A DNA stretch of 64,000 nucleotides from Wenjunlia vitaminophila DSM 41686 (GTDB lineage: Bacteria > Actinomycetota > Actinomycetes > Streptomycetales > Streptomycetaceae), in the NCBI RefSeq assembly GCF_000380165.1, contig NZ_KB904654.1:1-64000 (forward strand), read 5' to 3'. Both the position numbers and the translations under genes were made by a program. Numbering within the stretch: position 1 is the first letter of the stretch; each line of letters opens with the position of its first letter. The notes beneath the pieces were generated by a model. That model was not told where the DNA came from. It searched no databases and saw only the letters and a program-made list of their open reading frames with translations. Below, one piece after another: positions 1 through 10,849 of this stretch.

Positions 1-94
1 TACGAGGACGACCCTCCGCCTTGCGATCGCACGCACCAGACGCCGCGACCCCCGCCCTCCGGGCGGACGGCGCTACTTATCAGACAGGCCCTAG
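1..94. mobile_element. Right part of MITE-like element, copy 1 (truncated by window start)
   Basis: These 94 bases match positions 9959-10052 exactly. The segment ends in TTATCAGACAGGCCCTAG, the right terminal inverted repeat of the complete copy at 9872-10052. The left end lies outside the window. The final CTAG supplies the TAG stop codon of the DUF3710 gene on the minus strand. No transposase is present, so this is a non-autonomous element. Confidence 0.85.
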
Positions 95-867
95 TGGACC
101 TCAGTGATCTCCGGGCCCCGCCGGAACGGGTCGAGGTTCTGCGCGGAGAAGCGGCCCTCCCCGTCCTCTCCCTGCTGGGTGGCCTCCGGCACCATCTGGG
201 CGTCCTCGGGGAGCTTGAGCACGATGGGGTCGCGCGGGGCCATCGGCGCCTCGCCACGGACCACCACGGTGTCCCGCAGGATCTGCTCCAGCAGCCCGGC
301 GGACTCGGGTTGCACCGCGCCCTGGCCGGAGATGACCCCGCGCAGGAACCAGCGGGGGCCGTCCACACCCACGAAGCGCACCAGTTGCACGCCGTTGGTG
401 CCGTCCGGGAGCTGCACCGGCACCCGGGCCCGCAGCTCCCAGCCCAGGGGCCCCTCGACCTCGTCGACGACCCCGCCCTGCTGGGTGATGCCGGAGGCGA
501 TCTCGTCCCGGACCTCTCCCCAGATGCCCTCGGAACGCGGAGCGGCGAACGCCTGGAGCTGGATGGCGCTGTTCTGGAGCACCACGGTGGCCGCGACGAT
601 GGCGTCACCGGCCACCTCCACCCTCAGCTCCATGCCCTCCACCCCGGGCACGTAGAGGCCTCCGAGGTTGACCCGGCCCTTGCCCGGCTCACTGACCTCG
701 GAGATGTCCCAGGGCCCTTCGGGGCGCGGCGCTGCGGGGAGGTTCACCCGGCGCGGCTCGTCCTCCGGCGCCTCCTCCTCGGCGTCGTCCGCCGACTGAT
801 CCCGGTCCAGCGAGCTCTCGGACTGCTCAGGAGCCTCTGTGCTCTTACTGCGGCGACGACGGAACAC
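91..867 (-). CDS. DUF3710 family protein
   Basis: A 258-residue protein of the actinobacterial DUF3710 family, whose biochemical function is unknown. Residues 1-45 are highly charged and low in complexity, with Arg/Lys first and then a run of Glu and Asp. The folded domain follows from about residue 50 to the end. I see no signal peptide or membrane segment, so it is probably cytoplasmic. It lies one base downstream of dut and is probably co-transcribed with it and the thioesterase gene; the dut-DUF3710 pairing is common in actinobacteria. Its TAG stop coincides with the CTAG boundary of the mobile element at 1-94, so an insertion has replaced everything 3' of the stop. Family assignment rests on sequence character and on the dut neighbour. 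Confidence 0.8.
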   Translation of the reverse strand: MFRRRRSKSTEAPEQSESSLDRDQSADDAEEEAPEDEPRRVNLPAAPRPEGPWDISEVSEPGKGRVNLGGLYVPGVEGMELRVEVAGDAIVAATVVLQNSAIQLQAFAAPRSEGIWGEVRDEIASGITQQGGVVDEVEGPLGWELRARVPVQLPDGTNGVQLVRFVGVDGPRWFLRGVISGQGAVQPESAGLLEQILRDTVVVRGEAPMAPRDPIVLKLPEDAQMVPEATQQGEDGEGRFSAQNLDPFRRGPEITEVH

Positions 868-8334: not shown

Positions 8335-8530
8335 CGCTCCTCCAGTCGGTGTGAGGCGGTGCGTGGGCCCGCGGGTGCGGGGTGCCGCCCGGACAGGGCA
8401 GACTTGGCCCGCGACCACCGCCGGGCCCCCGCGGGGGAACTGGCTGATCGCGCGCGTCCCGGGGGCCGGGCGAGCCCGGCCGGCACCGGCGGCTCACACA
8501 CTGACGCACAGCAACGGGGGGATGCCGTCC

Positions 8531-9754
8531 ATGAGGAACCGTTTCGTCCGAGGCGTGGCAACACTCGCCGGCCTCGTGCTCGCCGGCACCGGCACCGCCG
8601 CCGTGAACGCCACCACGGCAGCCGCGGACGTCTACGACTGCCCGGCCGGCTACTGGTGCGGCTGGACCGGCGAGAGCGCCACCGGGCAGATGTTCAAGAC
8701 GAACAAGGACGTCGCGGACCTGGGAAGCCTGGACAACACGTTCTACTCGTACGTCAACCACACCAACCTGATCTCCTGCCTCTACGACGCCAGGAACTAC
8801 GACGTGTCGGGCGGCTACCATGCCCACTCCCCCGACGAAGCGGGCGCGTACACCTCCTACACCCGGCCGTCGATCAGCTCGATCAAGTTCGTCCGCACCA
8901 AGCGCGAGTGCGGCTCACCCGCCTACCCGTACTGGTTCTCCGATCCCTCCCCCACGGCCTCCGGCTTCGGGGACATGAACGCCGACCGCATGGCCGACGT
9001 CATCGTCCGCGACAAGGCGGGACGGCTGTGGTTCACCCCGGGCAACGGCACCGGCCGGCTCATCGGCGCCGGCGGCTGGAACAGCATGAGCGCCCTCACC
9101 CGGCACGGCGACTTCAGCCGCGACGGCCGCGAGGACCTCATCGCCCGCGAGGCGGCCACCGGCAAGCTGTGGCTCTACCCCGGCACCGGCACCGGCTCCC
9201 TCGGCTCCCGCCAACTGATCGGCTCGGGCGGCTGGAACAGCATGCGCCACATCACCGCCCTCGGCGACCTGACCGGCGACGGCCGCTCCGACCTGGTCGC
9301 CGTCGAGAAGGCCACGGGCAAGCTCTACCTGTACCCGGGCACCTCCACCGGCAAGCTGGGGCCGCGCACGCTCATCGGCTCGGGCGGCTGGAACGCCATG
9401 AACGCGCTCGTGGGCATGGGCGACACCAACGGCGACCGCCGCCCCGACCTGTACGCGCGCGAGGCGGCCACCGGCAAGCTGTGGCTCTACCCGGGCACCT
9501 CCACCGGCAGGCTCGGGTCCCGCACGCTCATCGGCTCGGGCGGCTGGAACGCCATGGCCAACTTCATCGCGGTCGGCGACTCCTCCGGCGACGGACGTCC
9601 CGACCTGCACACCGTCACCAACGAGAACTACGTCATCGACGGGTACCCGGGCAACCCCGGATGGCTGCTCACCTACCAGGGCCTGGGCAACGGCCGCCTG
9701 GCGAGCGGCGTGCGGACCAACGGCGACTGGTACCTCCTCAACGGCTTCTGCTGA
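8531..9754 (+). CDS. Secreted I36-like / FG-GAP repeat protein
   Basis: A 407-residue exported protein. Residues 1-31 form a signal peptide (Arg-rich start, hydrophobic GVATLAGLVLAG, Ala-rich end). Residues 33-125 contain spaced cysteines and the pattern DVYDCPAGYWCGWTG, typical of the peptidase-inhibitor I36 / beta-gamma-crystallin-like domain of actinobacteria. Residues 135-400 hold about four FG-GAP/VCBS-type repeats with Asp-rich calcium loops (GDLTGDGRSDL, GDTNGDRRPDL) and the recurring LIGSGGWN. Such repeats form a beta-propeller-like ligand-binding surface. ATG 8531 is preferred over ATG 8522 because the GGGGGGA ribosome site sits 9 bases upstream of it. It is probably extracellular; inhibitor or binding function is inferred. 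A strong hairpin follows. Confidence 0.85.
   Translation: MRNRFVRGVATLAGLVLAGTGTAAVNATTAAADVYDCPAGYWCGWTGESATGQMFKTNKDVADLGSLDNTFYSYVNHTNLISCLYDARNYDVSGGYHAHSPDEAGAYTSYTRPSISSIKFVRTKRECGSPAYPYWFSDPSPTASGFGDMNADRMADVIVRDKAGRLWFTPGNGTGRLIGAGGWNSMSALTRHGDFSRDGREDLIAREAATGKLWLYPGTGTGSLGSRQLIGSGGWNSMRHITALGDLTGDGRSDLVAVEKATGKLYLYPGTSTGKLGPRTLIGSGGWNAMNALVGMGDTNGDRRPDLYAREAATGKLWLYPGTSTGRLGSRTLIGSGGWNAMANFIAVGDSSGDGRPDLHTVTNENYVIDGYPGNPGWLLTYQGLGNGRLASGVRTNGDWYLLNGFC
8971..9640 (+). repeat. Internal tandem coding repeat, 156-bp period
   Basis: Within the secreted protein gene, blocks repeat every 156 bp (52 codons). The GGCCACxGGCAAGCT core occurs at about 9155, 9311 and 9467, and a shorter related block lies near 9010. 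The DNA is nearly identical between some units (GCGCGAGGCGGCCACCGG-type stretches), which points to recent duplication or homogenisation. Confidence 0.8.
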
Positions 9755-9816
9755 GCCCTGAGCCCGTCCGCGCACCGGGCGGGACAGGGCTCGGGGACCG
9801 GCCGTTCCGACGGCGA

Positions 9817-9846
9817 CGGGGGAGAACCCGCCCGGGTTCTCCCCCG
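9817..9846. terminator. Perfect 14-bp stem terminator hairpin
   Basis: CGGGGGAGAACCCG (9817-9830) pairs perfectly with 9833-9846 across a 2-nt apex (4-nt effective loop), 62 bases after the secreted-protein stop codon. There is no T-tract. It acts as the likely transcription end for the secreted protein and insulates it from the MITE and the inositol phosphatase gene. Confidence 0.75.
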
Positions 9847-9871
9847 TTCCGCACCGGCACCCTCCCGGCCC

Positions 9872-10052
9872 CTAGGGCCTGTCTGATAAATCCCGCCTGG
9901 GTCGTGACGCCTGGCACGCACGCTCGCTGCGTTGTCGGGATCGTCCATGTACGCCCAGTACGAGGACGACCCTCCGCCTTGCGATCGCACGCACCAGACG
10001 CCGCGACCCCCGCCCTCCGGGCGGACGGCGCTACTTATCAGACAGGCCCTAG
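9872..10052. mobile_element. Complete MITE-like foldback element with CTAG target duplication, copy 2
   Basis: The ends are perfect 18-bp inverted repeats: CTAGGGCCTGTCTGATAA at 9872-9889 and its complement at 10035-10052. If CTAG is the duplicated 4-bp target, the element proper is 9876-10048 (173 bp, ends GGCCTGTCTGATAA). A TA duplication is an alternative reading. The interior is itself nearly self-complementary (left GTCGTGACGCCTGG against right GTCGCGGCGTCTGG, and TCGTCC against GGACGA), so the whole element folds back. No transposase is encoded. CTAG targeting recalls IS5-group elements, but the parent element is not identified. The right CTAG contains the TAG stop codon of the inositol phosphatase gene. 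Confidence 0.85.
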
Positions 10053-10849
10053 TCGTGCCAGGCGCCCAGCTCGTCCACGAGCCGCTGGAGCGGGTCGAAG
10101 ATGCCCGGGACGGCGACCACGGTCAGCTCCTCCGAGGGGACCTGTCCGGGACGGCCGCCGACCAGCGCGCCGGACTCCCGGGCGAACAGCACCCCGGCGG
10201 CGTAGTCCCAGCGCTTCAGGCCCCGCTCGTAGTAGCCGTCGAGTCGCCCGCAGCCGACGTCGCACAGGTCGATGGCCGCGGCCCCGGCCCGGCGGATGTC
10301 ACGCACCTGGGGCAGCAGGGCCCGCACCACCTCGGCCTGGTGGGCGCGGCGCTCGGCGACGTACCCGAACCCGGTCGCGATCAGCGCCTGCTCGAACGGG
10401 GGCGTGTCCCTGCAGTGGACCCGCTCGCCGTCCCGGAAGGCCCCCTGACCCTCCGCGGCGTGGTAGAGCTCGCCGCGCATCGGGGCGGCGACCACACCGA
10501 CCACGGCGCGCCCGTCCACCTCGGCAGCGATGCTCACGCCCCATGACGGCAGGCCGTAGAGGTAGTTGACGGTGCCGTCCAGCGGGTCGATCACCCAGCG
10601 GACGCCGCTGCTCCCGACGGTGGTGCCGCCCTCCTCGCCGAGGAAACCGTCCGTCGGCCTCCGTTCGGAAATGAAGTCGGTGATCAGCTTCTCGGCCGCC
10701 ACGTCCATCTCGGTGACCACGTCGATGGGGCTGCTCTTGGTGGCCGCCACGGCGAGGTCGTCGGGCCGTCCGGTGCGCAGCAGCTCACCAGCCCTGCGGG
10801 CGGCCTCCTGCGCGATCTCCAGCAGTTCGGTCACGGGGGCTTGGGTCAC
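10049..10849 (-). CDS. Inositol monophosphatase family protein
   Basis: A 266-residue Mg2+/Li+-type sugar phosphatase. The family metal-binding motifs are clear: GEEGG near residue 70, WVIDPLDGTVNY near residue 88 and WDYAAG near residue 215. It probably dephosphorylates inositol-1-phosphate or a related sugar phosphate, feeding inositol lipids or mycothiol; fructose-bisphosphate or histidinol-phosphate activity cannot be excluded. GTG 10849 is chosen, with an AGGGA ribosome site just upstream; the longer frame runs antisense into the ferrochelatase gene. Its TAG stop lies inside the boundary of the mobile element, so the insertion kept the reading frame exactly intact. Confidence 0.88.
   Translation of the reverse strand: MTQAPVTELLEIAQEAARRAGELLRTGRPDDLAVAATKSSPIDVVTEMDVAAEKLITDFISERRPTDGFLGEEGGTTVGSSGVRWVIDPLDGTVNYLYGLPSWGVSIAAEVDGRAVVGVVAAPMRGELYHAAEGQGAFRDGERVHCRDTPPFEQALIATGFGYVAERRAHQAEVVRALLPQVRDIRRAGAAAIDLCDVGCGRLDGYYERGLKRWDYAAGVLFARESGALVGGRPGQVPSEELTVVAVPGIFDPLQRLVDELGAWHD

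Follow-up and report, generated by a model that had tools for sequence, protein, structure and literature searches.

The DNA window analysed here, a stretch of 64,000 nucleotides from Wenjunlia vitaminophila DSM 41686, carries two copies of a short inverted-repeat element, each of which meets the TAG stop codon of a minus-strand gene at its right-hand end. The features are as follows, with bases at the junctions assigned for a target duplication of TA, the model that we favor below.

9872..10052, plus strand: complete MITE including CTAG at both ends, non-coding, 181 bp
9872..9889, plus strand: left terminal inverted repeat with CTAG junction
10035..10052, minus strand: right terminal inverted repeat with CTAG junction
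9873..9874: putative TA target duplication, left copy (host C at 9872, first element base G at 9875)
10050..10051: putative TA target duplication, right copy (last element base C at 10049, host G at 10052)
10049..10051, minus strand: TAG stop of the inositol monophosphatase gene (T and A target DNA, G the terminal base of the element under the TA model)
10049..10849, minus strand: inositol monophosphatase family gene (PF00459)
1..94, plus strand: second MITE copy, element positions 88-181, ending at the contig start
91..93, minus strand: TAG stop of the DUF3710 gene, at the right junction of the copy at 1-94
91..867, minus strand: DUF3710 gene (PF12502)

The element and the proteins beside it

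The termini of the 181-bp element are perfect inverted repeats over 18 bp (88% over 26 bp), and the corresponding 18-mer, CTAGGGCCTGTCTGATAA, occurs at 9872-9889 on the plus strand and at 10035-10052 and 77-94 on the minus strand, against 0.01 occurrences expected. No open reading frame is confined to the element, and its DNA folds far more strongly than shuffled sequence does (z=-7.1). The first-pass annotation had described two copies identical over all 94 comparable bases, both with a right-hand CTAG that holds the stop codon of the neighbouring minus-strand gene (DUF3710 and inositol monophosphatase), and both points are borne out, with 100% identity between window positions 1-94 and element positions 88-181. 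The truncation of the copy at 1-94 is only apparent: base 1 of the window is base 1 of contig C20 (the genome, of 6.43 Mb, is in 111 contigs), and the left half is missing through a break in the assembly and not for a biological reason. The same annotation also had the element replacing native 3' sequence, but there is no sign of host sequence loss. Between the plus-strand gene at 8522-9754 and the MITE, positions 9816-9847 form a perfect 15-bp inverted repeat with a 2-bp loop, which is probably a native terminator.

The element is short, non-coding and bounded by terminal inverted repeats, it is found as about 30 near-identical copies (96-100%) at separate sites with unrelated flanks, and its ends are common to autonomous elements, as seen in IS5-family elements of relatives that have the same 14-18 bp tip. 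We assign it to the IS5/IS427-type MITEs, a kind already known.

An insertion at a stop codon was proposed to truncate no protein, and this holds at all eight sites tested (the two window genes and six further sites compared with a genome of the same genus), where the protein ends at the same residue as its orthologs or at a neighbouring one. The inositol monophosphatase ends in GAWHD as its orthologs do, and the DUF3710 protein in EITEVH where orthologs have EITEVR; in a DUF3710 ortholog of the same genus the corresponding stop is an empty C-TAG. Truncation of proteins by insertion is rejected, since the C-termini match at eight of eight sites. A related reading, that the insertions create the stops and so truncate or trim the proteins, with the element supplying the TAG, we find hardly credible. 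It can appeal to the TA model, under which the G of TAG belongs to the element, and to the orthologs of sister species, which mostly end in TGA and not TAG, but most stops in these genomes are TGA (635 of 799), so that a differing stop in a relative is expected, and both the empty C-TAG retained in one ortholog and the agreement of the C-termini speak against it. At one degraded copy, at an orotidine-5'-phosphate decarboxylase-like gene (L091:9203, C71), the junction has changed from CTAG to CCAG and the gene now reads through to a TGA within the terminal repeat of the element.

Copies, CTAG background and placement at stops

A genome-wide search with the 18-mer, allowing up to three mismatches, located 38 ends in forward and 33 in reverse orientation, and none for the reversed pattern used as a control. 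After merging of copies split across contig ends these give 30 copies, a count that could drop by about three as contig breaks inside some copies leave just one side visible, plus several remnants and a 67-bp miniature (L074:2494-2560, C26:72493-72559) that consists of two tips and a short stem only. With genes around the copies called by a home-made codon-usage script, 17 of the 30 have a junction CTAG that includes the TAG stop of such a gene, and at two of these (L065 and L097) it serves as stop for the convergent genes on both sides, whose ends lay in a single CTAG before the element inserted. The 13 other copies lie elsewhere than at stops, some of them just upstream of genes.

CTAG is rare in this GC-rich genome, as the first-pass annotation had supposed. 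Outside the elements, 642 kb of the genome contain 107 occurrences where base composition predicts 1599, a depletion of about 15-fold, and these divide into 31 at stops, 65 intergenic and just 11 inside genes. The background was taken from 1.04 Mb of the same genome and 0.82 Mb of relatives. Within the 1.04-Mb sample 45 of 199 CTAGs are at stops, and the tabulated copies exceed this background as anticipated (OR 4.5, p=2.6e-4), also when compared with non-genic CTAGs only (OR 3.7).

Placement at stops recurs beyond this genome. A similar element body is present in 21 of 41 related genomes, and TAG stops hold 15 of 20 copies in G007 (background CTAGs 11/47) and 22 of the 40 loci with tip GGCCTGTCTGACAA in other genomes of the same family (background 28/91), copies that are not necessarily all independent events. 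The exact 18-mer is found in named records including Streptomyces radicis, S. thermovulgaris and S. hainanensis, with several ends again at TAG stops, in a collection that may omit our own genome and very near ones. The window element (9872-10052) and the G007 copies (e.g. L124:7992-8172) are 89% identical in the body (129/145) and share only 8 of 14 tip bases per end; related bodies in further genomes carry still other tips, as though one body had been re-tipped for different transposases.

Among the pooled complete copies 37 of 53 lie at stops, compared with 79 of 319 unoccupied CTAGs (OR 7.0, p=4e-10), and occupied sites are distinguished in other respects too: G or C stands on both sides of CTAG in 43/53 of them versus 155/319 (p=1e-5), and they sit in GC-rich DNA, away from gene starts. 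A purely tetranucleotide explanation is rejected, because occupied sites also require the G/C flanks and the GC-rich context. The stop excess is seen within convergent gaps (23/25 vs 28/45, p=0.01), within tandem gaps (12/16 vs 48/157, p=7e-4) and among S-CTAG-S sites that are non-genic, GC-rich in context and no closer than 150 bp to a start (26/33 vs 26/48, p=0.03). A logistic model with flanking bases, GC, gene orientation and upstream distance as covariates gives a stop effect of OR 2.45 (z=2.3), where the raw OR is 7. The enrichment is mostly explained by CTAG depletion in genes, G/C flank preference, GC-rich context and avoidance of upstream positions; the residual effect of about 2.5-fold may reflect selection or a genuine but slight preference, and a stop-recognising mechanism is not needed.

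These comparisons bear on the proposal of the first-pass annotation that the element finds a safe harbour through its choice of tetranucleotide. The proposal is right in outcome, the stop enrichment being genome-wide and the proteins intact, but mostly passive in mechanism: the tetranucleotide does not act alone, as flanks, GC context and upstream distance also count, and a dedicated mechanism is unproven, given how far the stop effect falls with the covariates and that selection could explain the remainder. Active targeting, in which the transposase would prefer 3' gene ends beyond CTAG itself, for example DNA exposed at transcription termination, would account for the residual effect and for the excess that holds inside convergent and tandem gaps. 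However, the effect shrinks to about 2.5-3 as covariates enter, 13 of the 30 copies lie elsewhere, including some just upstream of genes, and purifying selection against intergenic insertions is expected to have the same sign, and we regard such targeting as quite unlikely. Doubtful, too, is a more general claim, that IS5/IS427-type elements have a stop-codon niche in GC-rich actinobacteria, in which C-TA-G and the terminal G restore the stop whichever strand it is on, with a further preference of the transposase for gene ends; if it were true, TAG stops would be a self-repairing landing site.

We also considered whether copies are retained at stops as domesticated 3'-end elements, the hairpin ending or protecting the transcripts of the neighbouring gene. 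As RNA the element folds into a hairpin over nearly its whole length (-128.8 kcal/mol, z=-12.3 for the minus strand; -107.6 kcal/mol, z=-9.5 for the plus strand), and degraded remnants (L077, L079 and L093) are still at stops. Folding is expected of any foldback MITE, however, and so are remnants at stops, because selection keeps the stop itself; moreover a U-run is absent, and orientation relative to the gene has no clear bias in a hand count (9 right-end vs 6 left-end), so that we judge domestication to be very unlikely. A search of Rfam with the element returned no known RNA family, the matches being chance ones to microRNAs, far below threshold.

Duplicated unit, transposase and proposed mechanism

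Nearly all junctions read CTAG, and the duplicated unit is best judged from the few imperfect junction pairs, in copies as they are found in the genomes. The pairs at complete copies are TTAG/CCAG, TTAG/CTGG and CCAG/CTAA in our genome and ATAG/CTAG in G033. A 4-bp duplication needs two changes for each of the first three and one for the last, whereas a 2-bp duplication of TA, with G as the first base of the element and C as its last, needs one, one, one and none, and parsimony thus favors TA over CTAG. The ends of L250, a transposase-bearing element (CTA-AGGCC at the left, GGCCT-TAG at the right), form a direct repeat only under TA duplication. On this parsimony argument the duplicated target is probably, although not certainly, TA within Y-TA-R (usually C-TA-G), and the stop TAG beside an element probably consists of host TA and the terminal G of the element. 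The first-pass annotation had the element both targeting and duplicating CTAG; the landing site stands, and as the duplicated unit TA fits better with the junction pairs and L250. Elements of the IS427 group in Paracoccus have mostly 2-bp repeats (PMC3281130), and a 4-bp CTAG duplication is reported, in the portions of the papers available, for an IS5-group element (PMC9241763) and for MITEPsy1 (PMC3189936).

Several copies have altered junctions. At L075/L089, L087/L094, L096 and L081 the changed junction that faces a gene keeps TAG, with a varying preceding base (TTAG, ATAG), and the junction that faces no gene decays to CCAG, CTGG or CTCG. In two tandem or abutting pairs (L096:9549-9776 and L090:9112-9320) the CTAG-like end of the first element is precisely where the second begins, so that the ends of elements act as targets for more insertions.

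A transposase-bearing relative with the same ends was to be expected from the first-pass annotation, and larger elements bearing the MITE tip are present in related genomes: L245 (955 bp, DUF4096), L250 (938 bp) and L254, which is larger. DUF4096 is matched by ORFs of L245, L251 and L254, as a separate ORF in the first two and, in L254, within one 314-aa ORF that has both DUF4096 and DDE_Tnp_1; the matches in these partner elements are at 1e-29 for PF13340 and 2e-22 for PF01609. The partner transposase has the DUF4096 N-terminus and DDE domain by which the IS427 group is recognised. Another mark of that group is a transposase produced by frameshift across two ORFs, and in ORF layout the partners are mixed, with a separate DUF4096 ORF in L245 and L251 and a single long ORF in L254. 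Within our own genome no same-tip transposase is found among the 18-mer ends (up to three mismatches) and the IS5-family matches examined. Its multi-copy IS5 element (DUF4096, DDE) has tips GCCGTGTCCGTAAAG / GTCGTGTCCGCAAAG, which differ from those of the MITE, and is probably not the mobiliser; CTAG is its insertion site too, and three of the five ends seen are at TAG stops (L165:19667, L166:235-238, L162:262). Among the 30 loci examined in G006, G007, G021, G032 and G033 there is no tip match between the MITEs and the resident IS5 elements, and unseen copies are possible.

The explanation that we favor, and as a whole consider likely, is that of a trans-mobilised IS427-type MITE with a Y-TA-R target, whose placement at stops is mainly a by-product, supplemented by selection. 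It draws on what is observed: the number of copies, their excess at stops, the intactness of the proteins, the extended target and the transposase-bearing relatives with the same tip. A non-autonomous IS5-family MITE of IS427 type would be mobilised in trans by an IS5-family transposase (tip GGCCTGTCTGATAA) into Y-TA-R, in practice C-TA-G with G or C flanks. The TA would be duplicated with the terminal G of the element (C on the other strand) adjoining it, and both junctions would read CTAG again. Because CTAG is nearly absent inside genes, the surviving targets would be mostly C-TAG gene ends and intergenic DNA, and insertions upstream of genes would be reduced further. At a C-TAG stop, the host would provide T and A and the element G, which would restore TAG regardless of which end faces the gene, and since the target is palindromic the rebuilding would work on both strands, even for convergent genes with one common CTAG. 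Placement at stops would then follow mainly from target choice and host composition, with selection, as we infer, behind the residual.

Comparison with known systems

The element offers a quantified case of the way in which target choice and genome composition can put a mobile element at a harmless position without a dedicated targeting protein. Stop repair from host TA and element G is a simple rule that makes predictions, and these can be tested wherever a GC-rich genome has IS5-type elements. There is a warning for annotation as well, as many actinobacterial genes have their stop codon in common with a transposon end. The literature searched, which covered few subscription journals, describes IS5 elements that target CTAG but does not mention an enrichment at stop codons; the stop-codon niche is real and appears undescribed there.

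The closest known group is IS427 within the IS5 family, with two overlapping ORFs, short terminal repeats and mostly 2-bp duplications (PMC3281130). The elements with the MITE tip resemble it in their DUF4096 and DDE_Tnp_1 transposase, in a length of about 0.9-1 kb (L245 and L250) and, probably, in inserting at TA in C-TA-G, whereas the window element lacks a transposase and an IS with its exact tip is absent from the matches in its own genome. MITEPsy1 of Pseudomonas syringae, an IS5-like MITE of 100 bp, is likewise small, with 18-bp ends and a CTAG/YTAA target, but its length and terminal sequence are unrelated, its copy number is low, its duplication is reported as 4 nt, and the available part of its description reports no association with stop codons (PMC3189936). 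ISMysh01 of Mycobacterium shottsii is also an actinobacterial IS5-family element at CTAG; unlike the MITE it is autonomous, with a single ORF and reported 4-bp CTAG direct repeats, and no analysis of stop codons is reported in the accessible portion of that paper (PMC9241763). ISLxc2 and ISLxx4 of Leifsonia xyli, which belong to the IS481 family and duplicate NCTAGN, share with our element a CTAG target whose TAG is used as a stop, although in these members of another family the TAG ends the transposase of the IS itself and not a host gene (PMC2516522).
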